Made by a program: the position numbers and the translations under genes. A stretch of 29,339 bases of DNA. Origin: a virus. Positions 3,853-26,636 of the stretch are shown in pieces (the stretch's first letter is position 1; every line of letters starts with the position of its first letter). The stretch spans positions 1-29,339 of the IMG/VR virus record IMGVR_UViG_3300031539_000220; one strand, given 5' to 3'. Below the pieces are notes generated by a model, which made no database searches, was not told where the DNA came from, and saw only the letters and a list, made by a program, of their open reading frames with translations.

Positions 3853-3877
3853 ATTTATTTATTTAAAAGTTTTTATG

Positions 3878-3962
3878 TTGCGTAGATGGGACTTGAACCC
3901 ATACTCCGGTTCCCCGAAAACGGATTTTAAGTCCGTTGCGTTTGCCATTTCGCCACTACGCA
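3878..3962 (-). tRNA. tRNA-Leu (anticodon UAA)
   Basis: The cloverleaf is complete. The acceptor TGCGTAG/CTACGCA is fully paired, and the D-arm is GCG...CGC. The anticodon arm is ACGGA-CTTAAAA-TCCGT, with UAA at positions 34-36. A long class II variable arm (TCGG-GGAA-CCGG-type) is followed by the T-arm ATGGG-TTCAAGT-CCCAT. The length of about 85 nt and the long variable arm fit tRNA-Leu decoding UUA. The bases after the discriminator are CA, so CCA is not fully encoded. It sits between the scaffold-like gene (stop at 3968) and the glycosyltransferase gene. Confidence 0.93.
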
Positions 3963-12587: not shown

Positions 12588-13095
12588 ATATTTTTGTGAT
12601 CCATTCAGCTACTCGTTTCGCTTGCGGAGTCTCCTCCCGAATAATTTGGTCATAGCACACATCTCCATAAGACTTGAATATCTGGACATTGTTTATCAAC
12701 CATCCCATGTGGTATCCCGACTTCATAAAGTTGATGAAGTTATTGGTAGCTTCTCGATCTACTACGAAGTTTAGTTTCCCAAATTTGTGTTCCCAGTACT
12801 CTTTTGGTTGGCAGTTGATGTGACCATGCCCACCTTGCCCCAGCAACGCAGCAGAAAAGACAATCACAGGCGCAATCTCCGTTAGCTTCTTCACCACATC
12901 GTCAGCAAGACTCTCATCGATGTGCTCGGCAACCTCTAGACACAATGCCAAGTCGTACTTCCCTGTCTCATCAAACATTGACTTGACGATCTCTGGGCAA
13001 CGCTTGTCTGGATCGATCCCAACAACATCATGCCCCAATTCGCGCAACGCCTGAACATATATGCCCGGCCCACATCCAACATCGATAATCTTCAC
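12574..13095 (-). CDS. Class I SAM-dependent methyltransferase
   Basis: The core motif I is IIDVGCGPGIYV at the very start. GHDVVGIDPD (motif II, acidic ribose-binding end) and YDLALCLEVAEHIDE (motif post-I/IV) follow, typical of methyltransferase 11/12-type small-molecule enzymes. I chose the GTG at 13093-13095 (173 residues), because it forms a GTGA overlap with the glycosyltransferase stop and motif I then starts at residue 3. An ATG at 13143 preceded by GGAGTAGG is the alternative and would add 16 residues while overlapping the glycosyltransferase by about 50 bases. The tight coupling suggests the pair act on the same glycan. The acceptor is unknown. Confidence 0.82.
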   Translation of the reverse strand: MKIIDVGCGPGIYVQALRELGHDVVGIDPDKRCPEIVKSMFDETGKYDLALCLEVAEHIDESLADDVVKKLTEIAPVIVFSAALLGQGGHGHINCQPKEYWEHKFGKLNFVVDREATNNFINFMKSGYHMGWLINNVQIFKSYGDVCYDQIIREETPQAKRVAEWITKIYDMG

Positions 13096-14210
13096 GGCAG
13101 CATCCTTGTCATTGCTTCCAACCCGTTTCCGTCTCCGTACCATCCTACTCCCGTGTACACATCCAGCACATCGCTGAAATACTTCTCGTACATTGGCGCA
13201 ACTTTCTCCAAAGAGAAGTTCTCTGCCCAGAGCCTGCATGACTCGCTACTGATCGCCCCCTGCTTGATCGCGTTGATCGCATCGACGAAGTCTCCCATCG
13301 TCCTGCACCGATAGCCCGTAACCCCATGCAAGTTGTTCTCCGCGAACGAACCCCAGTCTGTCGTTATCGTTGGTGTGCCAGAGAAAAGGTTCTCAATCTG
13401 GACTCCTCCAAACGGCTCGACATACTGCGATGGGATCAATGATCCTTTGGCCTTGCTCATTAGTTCTCGACGCTCCTCTGTGTCAGCATAGCCAATGTAC
13501 TCGACATGGTCAGGGATGCGATACCCGTGTTCTATCTGCCCTGCTACCTTCAGATGCACCCCGGTCCTCTCTGCCGCCTGAAACGCCACATCGCATCCCT
13601 TGCCTCCATAGACTCGCCCAATGTACAGGAAGTAGTCTTCCTTCTCGTCGTTGCCGCGATAGGTGAAGTCTTCACGATCAAAGTAGTTTGGGATCACCAC
13701 ATCGTACCAGTCCTGCCTGCATGATCCAACTGCCTGCAAGCCGCAATAGGCATGATAGATCGCATAGCTTTCCCAGACCTTCCATCGCGCCCAATGGCCT
13801 CCAGCATAGCCAATGCCGGGTTCAACGCAGATCAGGTCAGGGTGGGCATCGCAGACAGGACGAACTCCCGATCCCCAGAACGGCAGGATGAAGTCATGCT
13901 TCTGCTTGCGAAGCCCAACCTCCCTGATGGCATTAGCGTAAAAGGTGCGATAGGCGTGATCGTTCACGTCGAATTTGAAGAACGTCTTGCGCCAATCGTG
14001 ATCTCCGTAAGCTACCTGCCAGTCCTCGTTCTCCAGAACGGGAACATGTTCAGTACAATCCAGCACCGAATCCCTGTGCCCGTAGTGCAAGACCTCATGC
14101 CCTCTGGCAGTCATCATCTTGCCGAATTTGACCACCTTCTGCGTATAAGCACAGGCGTTAAACTCTTTGCTGGTTACTGTGTGTGGTAGACCAAGAATGT
14201 GAAATCTCAT
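13092..14210 (-). CDS. GT4-type glycosyltransferase
   Basis: This 372-residue GT-B fold enzyme has a second Rossmann domain that begins at FLYIGRVYGGKGCDVAFQAA. It contains HVEYIGYADTEERRELMSKA and the EX7E signature EPFGGVQIENLFSGTP, which binds the nucleotide-sugar donor in GT4 retaining transferases. The N-terminus (MRFHILGLPHTVTSKEF) is a typical acceptor-domain strand. It is coupled to the preceding small gene (ATGA) and to the methyltransferase (GTGA). It probably transfers a sugar in a glycan that the methyltransferase then caps. Whether the target is host surface, virion or DNA is not visible. Confidence 0.87.
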   Translation of the reverse strand: MRFHILGLPHTVTSKEFNACAYTQKVVKFGKMMTARGHEVLHYGHRDSVLDCTEHVPVLENEDWQVAYGDHDWRKTFFKFDVNDHAYRTFYANAIREVGLRKQKHDFILPFWGSGVRPVCDAHPDLICVEPGIGYAGGHWARWKVWESYAIYHAYCGLQAVGSCRQDWYDVVIPNYFDREDFTYRGNDEKEDYFLYIGRVYGGKGCDVAFQAAERTGVHLKVAGQIEHGYRIPDHVEYIGYADTEERRELMSKAKGSLIPSQYVEPFGGVQIENLFSGTPTITTDWGSFAENNLHGVTGYRCRTMGDFVDAINAIKQGAISSESCRLWAENFSLEKVAPMYEKYFSDVLDVYTGVGWYGDGNGLEAMTRMLP

Positions 14211-26276: not shown

Positions 26277-26299
26277 GGCAGAGAGATTATCGAAGCTGG

Positions 26300-26339
26300 T
26301 TGGGTTTGCAAGAATTATTTTTTGACTCTTGTGTCATAG
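26300..26339 (-). promoter_or_regulatory. Repeated phage regulatory element, copy A
   Basis: On the minus strand this reads CTATGACACAA, then GAGTCAAAAAATAATTCTTG and ACCCAA. ATGACA is a near match to a -35, with TTCTTG 17 bases on. It is shared with copies B and C, and it probably starts the early transcript at the 68-residue gene. Confidence 0.65.
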
Positions 26340-26381
26340 TAAAAACATTTATGCTTGACGCTTGATCAAAAACCCAAGCAG

Positions 26382-26416
26382 TCCGCAGACCCGCATGAAT
26401 GCTCACTCTGCGGGTG
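26382..26416 (-). terminator. Possible terminator or processing hairpin after the initiator-like tRNA
   Basis: Two alternative perfect 7-bp stems overlap here: ACCCGCA with TGCGGGT (26390-26416), and CCGCAGA with TCTGCGG (26382-26412 region). On the minus strand the stem is followed a little later by GGGTTTTTG. It would end or process the late transcript just beyond the tRNA CCA. Confidence 0.35.
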
Positions 26417-26488
26417 GTTGCAGGACCGGGAATCGAACCCGGAACTTCAGGTTATGGGCCTGACGAGATACCCTTTCTCTATCCTGCG
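26415..26488 (-). tRNA. Initiator-like tRNA-fMet (anticodon CAU)
   Basis: A complete 74-nt cloverleaf with encoded CCA. The acceptor CGCAGGA/TCCTGCA has a C1.A72 mismatch, and the D-arm GAGA/TCTC has A11:U24. Both are bacterial initiator hallmarks (formylase recognition; exclusion from elongation). The anticodon arm is TCAGG-CCCATAA-CCTGA, so the anticodon is CAU, but position 33 is C instead of U and only two of the three conserved G:C pairs are present (A29:U41). The T-arm is CCGGG-TTCGATT-CCCGG. tRNA-Met initiator genes are rare in phages. Confidence 0.85.
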
Positions 26489-26492
26489 GAAA

Positions 26493-26636
26493 TTATTTTT
26501 TGCGCTTCTTCGCCTTCGCCTTGCGTTGTACTGCGTAGGCAATCGCCACCGATTGCTTCACCGATTTTCCTGACTTTACTTCCGAGGAAACATTGCGATC
26601 AAAGCAATTTTGTGAAGCGCATTTTCGTAGTGGCAT
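26493..26636 (-). CDS. Small basic protein (47 aa)
   Basis: This 47-residue protein starts MPLRKCASQNCFDRNVSSEV, continues KSGKSVKQSVAIAYAVQRKA and ends in a lysine/arginine-rich tail. The K-x-G-K-x-x-K-Q-S/A-V-A-I-A core is a familiar tiny phage-protein motif of unknown function. The stop lies four bases before the initiator-like tRNA, and the start is one base after the large polyvalent gene stop. Confidence 0.7.
   Translation of the reverse strand: MPLRKCASQNCFDRNVSSEVKSGKSVKQSVAIAYAVQRKAKAKKRKK

Follow-up and report, generated by a model that had tools for sequence, protein, structure and literature searches.

Phage initiator tRNAs are known to exist, but their purpose is not known. The initiator tRNA starts every protein, and U33 is normally near-universal among tRNAs. 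A virus record of 29,339 bases (the window, meaning the whole stretch of DNA that was analyzed) carries a tRNA gene with a CAU anticodon and a C at position 33. This locus raises the questions of whether the gene belongs to a phage and encodes an initiator, whether its unusual base is preserved, and what such a tRNA would do during infection.

An initiator-type tRNA gene in a phage genome

Genes of the window lie mostly on the minus strand and encode TerL, a small terminase subunit, a RecT-like protein, a DnaC-like loader, and a dCMP deaminase. At 26415-26488 on the minus strand, ARAGORN called a tRNA-Met(CAT) gene, which scored 56.8 bits (E value of 6e-10; cut-off of 29) against the Rfam tRNA model and, when folded computationally on its own, formed a cloverleaf of -25.7 kcal/mol (z of -2.3). 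Its minus-strand sequence is CGCAGGAUAGAGAAAGGGUAUCUCGUCAGGCCCAUAACCUGAAGUUCCGGGUUCGAUUCCCGGUCCUGCAACCA. Direct reading gives C1·A72, A73, and an encoded CCA at the ends, A11:U24, A29:U41, G30:C40, and G31:C39 in the stems, and C32-C33-C34-A35-U36-A37-A38 in the anticodon loop. A preliminary description of this DNA had listed C1·A72, A11:U24, CAU, CCA, C33, and A29:U41, and all of these are present by ARAGORN, Rfam, and reading. The features discussed below are as follows:

26415..26488, minus strand: initiator-type tRNA-CAU (tRNA-fMet) gene, 74 nt including the encoded CCA (ARAGORN, Rfam RF00005, fold, covariation)
26452..26458, minus strand: anticodon loop CCCAUAA (32-38), invariant among aligned relatives
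26454-26456, minus strand: anticodon CAU, within loop CCCAUAA
26457, minus strand: C33 replacing U33 (direct reading; 10/10 in a base-33-blind scan)
26461, minus strand: A29 of A29:U41, invariant in the lineage and common among bacterial initiators
26449, minus strand: U41 of A29:U41, on the same basis as A29
26419, minus strand: A72 opposite C1 (26488); an end left unpaired in this way marks formylated initiators, and 1:72 is unpaired in every relative
26493..26636, minus strand: small conserved ORF of 47 aa, MPLRKCASQNCF..., which stops 4 nt short of the tRNA
26390..26414, minus strand: 6-bp inverted repeat CCCGCA...TGCGGG directly 3' of the tRNA (direct reading, alignment)
3877..3962, minus strand: tRNA-Leu(UAA), a second phage tRNA, with the normal U33 (ARAGORN; Rfam, 64.1 bits)

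Bacterial initiators are marked by an unpaired 1:72, by A11:U24, and by G:C pairs in the anticodon stem, the E. coli rule being three consecutive G:C pairs at 29-31:39-41 (PMC7949028). The window tRNA is a cloverleaf with a CAU anticodon by ARAGORN, Rfam, and fold. Its 1:72 position is unpaired, as C·A in the window and as C·U or U·U in some relatives, and the purine11:pyrimidine24 pair is constant as A11:U24 across all members. The strict run of three G:C pairs is absent, the first of the three being substituted by A29:U41. However, A29:U41 is found in all of the Verrucomicrobiota initiators and many of the Pseudomonadota initiators among the matches listed, and therefore the strict rule does not delimit the natural initiator family. 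The 1:72 mismatch persists even as its letters change, a pattern expected from selection for an unpaired end.

An elongator tRNA-Met or a lysidine-modified tRNA-Ile2 would share the CAU anticodon, and the change of one of the three G:C pairs to A:U speaks in the same direction. Both of these tRNAs are recognized by a paired 1:72 and pyrimidine11:purine24, whereas all members have an unpaired 1:72 and a constant A11:U24, and the chromosomal matches of the window tRNA in Verrucomicrobiota are initiator genes among the matches read. We consider either noninitiator identity very improbable; anatomy, as opposed to an isotype model, appears to exclude both. The same observations uphold the earlier assignment to the initiator type, and the earlier claim that the gene is phage encoded agrees with the presence on that strand of TerL, the small terminase subunit, RecT, and further phage genes and with conserved synteny. 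Overall, the sequence shows a phage-encoded initiator-type gene under selection, whose tRNA would be formylated and used in initiation.

Conservation of the tRNA within an uncultured phage lineage

The source lineage comprises uncultured tailed phages, about 60 kb in size. In cultured phages, no match was found for TerL, for two other large proteins, or, by megablast, for the first 25 kb of the window. Relatives of TerL were found on 149 stretches in IMG/VR, 80 of which were kept, and a relative of the tRNA was present in 7 of the 22 TerL-lineage records searched, many lineage records being fragments. The tRNA sits at the same place in all seven, starting within a few bases of the end of a conserved ORF of some 47 to 52 aa, and this ORF lies upstream of the tRNA in 8/8 members aligned; the two are probably cotranscribed. 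Among five distinct sequences, five base pairs have changed on both sides (27:43, 28:42, and three T-stem pairs), and none of 500 shuffles reached the covariation score of the alignment. Synteny in seven relatives together with these paired stem changes indicates that the tRNA is more than a chance match.

Within this evolving tRNA, some positions do not move. The loop CCCAUAA and the pairs A29:U41, G30:C40, and G31:C39 are invariant while other positions vary, and 1:72 is never paired in any aligned sequence. An IMG/VR scan for the tRNA body with N at position 33 returned C33 in 10/10 records, superseding a first count with the motif CAGGCCCATAACCTG, which was biased toward C33 by design and included chance non-tRNA matches. 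A second type of tRNA body (in G018 and L107) follows the same ORF and likewise carries C33. Among the matches read, the G018 tRNA differs from the closest chromosomal initiator at 3 of 74 positions, one of which is the change of U33 to C, and its closest chromosomal relatives all have U33. Given these relatives and the invariance of C33 in the lineage, the change to C33 seems to have been retained on the phage side in the G018 type. U33 is preserved in the tRNA-Leu of the window phage, which argues that the anticodon loops of this phage are not simply drifting.

Other parts of the locus are less constant. The encoded CCA is absent from several relatives (L206, L207, L208, and L203), which have ACCC instead, so that the CCA-adding enzyme of the host is probably used. 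The inverted repeat at 26390..26414 was not called by a terminator scan and is a possible 3' processing or termination signal. The noncoding stretch that follows the tRNA (26284-26414) is partly conserved between relatives and also holds a GCTTG...CAAGC repeat. In addition, no tRNA was found in a 62-kb relative (G010), and the tRNA would thus be dispensable to the wider family.

A search of TerL against 388 Verrucomicrobiota genomes gave only two weak matches and no prophage clearly of the lineage, and a prophage and spacer search with 20 kb of DNA against 289 Verrucomicrobiota genomes gave the tRNA and short repeat-like matches. The tRNA does not settle the host, since the G018 type is 96 to 97% identical to both Verrucomicrobiota and Pseudomonadota matches. 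A glycosyltransferase at 13092-14210 shares, across 96% of its length, about 70% identity with the enzyme of Synechococcus myophages ACG-2014f; the Synechococcus-phage host that this would suggest was rejected, as one mobile gene is insufficient. Another relative (G003) encodes PATR (autotransporter-type) and collagen repeat proteins, possibly of the tail or surface (L451:13851-15266 and L451:9598-11997).

Distribution of A29:U41 and C33 among initiators

The preliminary description had called both A29:U41 and C33 odd. For A29:U41 this does not hold, as the pair is common among bacterial initiators: beyond the chromosomal matches in Verrucomicrobiota and Pseudomonadota, it occurs in 66 of a sample of 117 viral initiator arms. 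C33 occurs in 9 of these 117, a fraction that is not comparable with that among the chromosomal matches listed because host taxa differ. At least 117 stretches of chromosomes or genome contigs in a genome collection carry C33 initiators, in clades that include Weissella, Leuconostoc, Erysipelotrichaceae, Patescibacteria, Phycisphaerae, and Lentisphaeria, which shows that C33 is not confined to phages. Among the matches listed for the Pseudomonadota sample, C33 appeared once, in the genome used to choose the center. Animal initiator tRNAs carry C33 as well (PMC9023262, PMC8080527).

Among phages, C33 is present in 5/5 tRNAs read from Pseudomonas phage D3 and its relatives (four of these), and both C33 (L291) and U33 (L275) are found among D3-like tRNAs in IMG/VR; the latter two tRNAs form a natural near-pair for a one-base comparison at position 33. 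C33 is uncommon, as the description of it as odd implied, and it is fixed in the present lineage, but it has precedents in chromosomes, in animals, and in phage D3. Of the other ARAGORN tRNAs of viral loci, 17 of 457 also read C33, some of them probably false calls, so it is not clear that C33 is confined to initiators among viral tRNAs. A literature search covering few subscription journals turned up no article that deals with C33 in initiator tRNAs of phages.

Two further viral tRNAs came to light. The archaeal virus ANMV-1 (KP703175.1) has an initiator-like tRNA with C33 (L486:101-163), overlapped by a CDS annotated as an anaerobic ribonucleoside triphosphate reductase. Pseudanabaena phage Pan5 has an unannotated initiator-like tRNA with U33 and A29:U41 (L442:1501-1570; ON968456.1, 31585-31654), overlain by a CDS annotated as "omega transcriptional repressor."

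Leader sequences and the initiator tRNA

Most starts in the window had been said to lack a Shine-Dalgarno (SD) sequence, and a match of at least 4 nt was indeed found at just 5 of 32 hand-picked starts, with leaders that are 72% A/T. From this it had been proposed that the phage may supply its own initiator to favor initiation at its SD-less, A/T-rich leaders. The SD-poor, A/T-rich leaders of the window fit this proposal. However, the relative without the tRNA (G010) has the same leader statistics, with SD matches at 21% against a background of 16% and leaders of 73% A/T. With ORF sets picked mechanically, long relatives with and without the tRNA are alike (SD, 21 to 24%; background, 14 to 16%). 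The D3-like phages of Pseudomonas share C33, which also counts against the proposal. Moreover, it is established that an initiator tRNA reads the start codon and does not touch the leader. Nothing ties the tRNA to the leaders, and we find this function hardly credible.

Possible roles of the tRNA and of C33

The explanation that we favor, and consider fairly probable as a whole, is a selected phage tRNA-fMet that sustains initiation, with C33 tolerated and fixed as a distinction from the host. The tRNA would be transcribed with the upstream small ORF, processed, charged by the MetRS of the host, and then formylated. In the ribosomal P site, it would keep initiation going in infected cells whose own tRNA-fMet has run short or been cleaved. 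C33 would be tolerated because an initiator never decodes in the A site. In the P site, the contacts of uS9 at positions 32, 33, and 35 are with phosphates (PMC7531240), so that C33 should be tolerated there, and the presence of C33 in natural chromosomal and animal initiators supports this tolerance. The likeliest reason for the fixation of C33 would be that it sets the phage tRNA apart from host tRNA-fMet at the anticodon loop, a site of attack for some tRNA-cutting toxins of hosts. This nuclease-linked reason for fixation is the weakest step, and we infer it only with doubt. Against the explanation as a whole stands the apparent dispensability of the tRNA in the wider family. U33 is also among the E. 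coli initiator determinants for MetRS (PMC9976931), and C33 might accordingly lower charging.

A stronger claim would make C33 a phage-selected escape allele against nucleases of the tRNA-fMet anticodon loop, arisen more than once, in this lineage and in D3-like phages. Both this claim and the weaker nuclease-linked step of the favored explanation draw on the cleavage of tRNA-fMet by VapC toxins at A38/C39, within the anticodon stem-loop (PMC4105405), on the proposal that phage tRNAs escape such nucleases through altered anticodon loops (PMC10264068), and on the separate occurrence of C33 in D3-like phages. Against both, phages are reported to encode tRNA-fMet rarely where it is a VapC target (PMC10264068). 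We regard the stronger version as unlikely. A plain initiator supplement, which would raise or protect initiation capacity and in which C33 is a neutral, P-site-tolerated allele inherited from a donor or host, is a real possibility, if not our preferred one. Phage tRNA-fMet genes are known elsewhere (PMC12429752, PMC10747093), chromosomal C33 occurs in the six clades named above, and the D3-like tRNAs of IMG/VR have both bases at position 33; C33 could simply match the initiator of the phage's own host. This neutral allele is harder to reconcile with a C33 that is invariant in the lineage while other positions vary and with U33 in the nearest chromosomal relatives of the G018 tRNA that were read. 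Tyrosine integrase PF00589 was found in 0/12 lineage records (several near 60 kb, some of them fragments) and in 14/14 control genomes, in a search confined to the tyrosine type. This result, together with the lack of a clear lineage prophage in the 388 genomes of one phylum, Verrucomicrobiota, leaves very little room for tRNA-dependent lysogeny, in which the phage tRNA would replace a host tRNA-fMet gene disrupted by prophage integration, as phage tRNAs do in some mycobacteriophages (PMC10865867).

Phage initiator tRNAs were already known, and the present gene is of an ordinary kind, its oddity being an unusually well-preserved C33. One fixed anticodon-loop base in an otherwise evolving tRNA offers a one-base test of escape from host tRNA-cutting defense. 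In addition, C33 and A29:U41 occur naturally as alleles of bacterial initiators, an observation relevant to the strictness of the three-G:C and U33 rules for initiation.

Comparison with known systems

Bacterial tRNA-fMet, as encoded by E. coli metZWV and metY, shares with the window tRNA the CAU anticodon, the unpaired 1:72, A11:U24, G30:C40, G31:C39, and A73. The window tRNA differs in having A29:U41 instead of G29:C41, C33 instead of U33, a shortened D-loop, and a four-base variable loop. The chromosomal C33 initiators of Lentisphaeria (Victivallales), Weissella, Patescibacteria, and others share C33, and those of Lentisphaeria and many Patescibacteria share A29:U41 as well; these are cellular genes, however, mostly with a longer D-loop and a variable loop of five bases. 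The tRNA-Met of phage D3 and D3-like phages is likewise a phage-encoded initiator type with the loop CCCAUAA and C33, but it keeps three G:C pairs, belongs to an unrelated phage, and is about 75 to 76% identical to the window tRNA.

In the animal cytosolic initiator, 1:72 is paired. That tRNA resembles the window tRNA in its C33 and CAU anticodon (PMC9023262, PMC8080527) but is not formylated and has A54/A58 in the T-loop (PMC9023262). The nuclease-evading phage tRNAs of van den Berg et al. 2023 (PMC10264068) also have a changed anticodon loop; a general avoidance of tRNA-fMet was reported with them, whereas the present tRNA is itself of the tRNA-fMet type.
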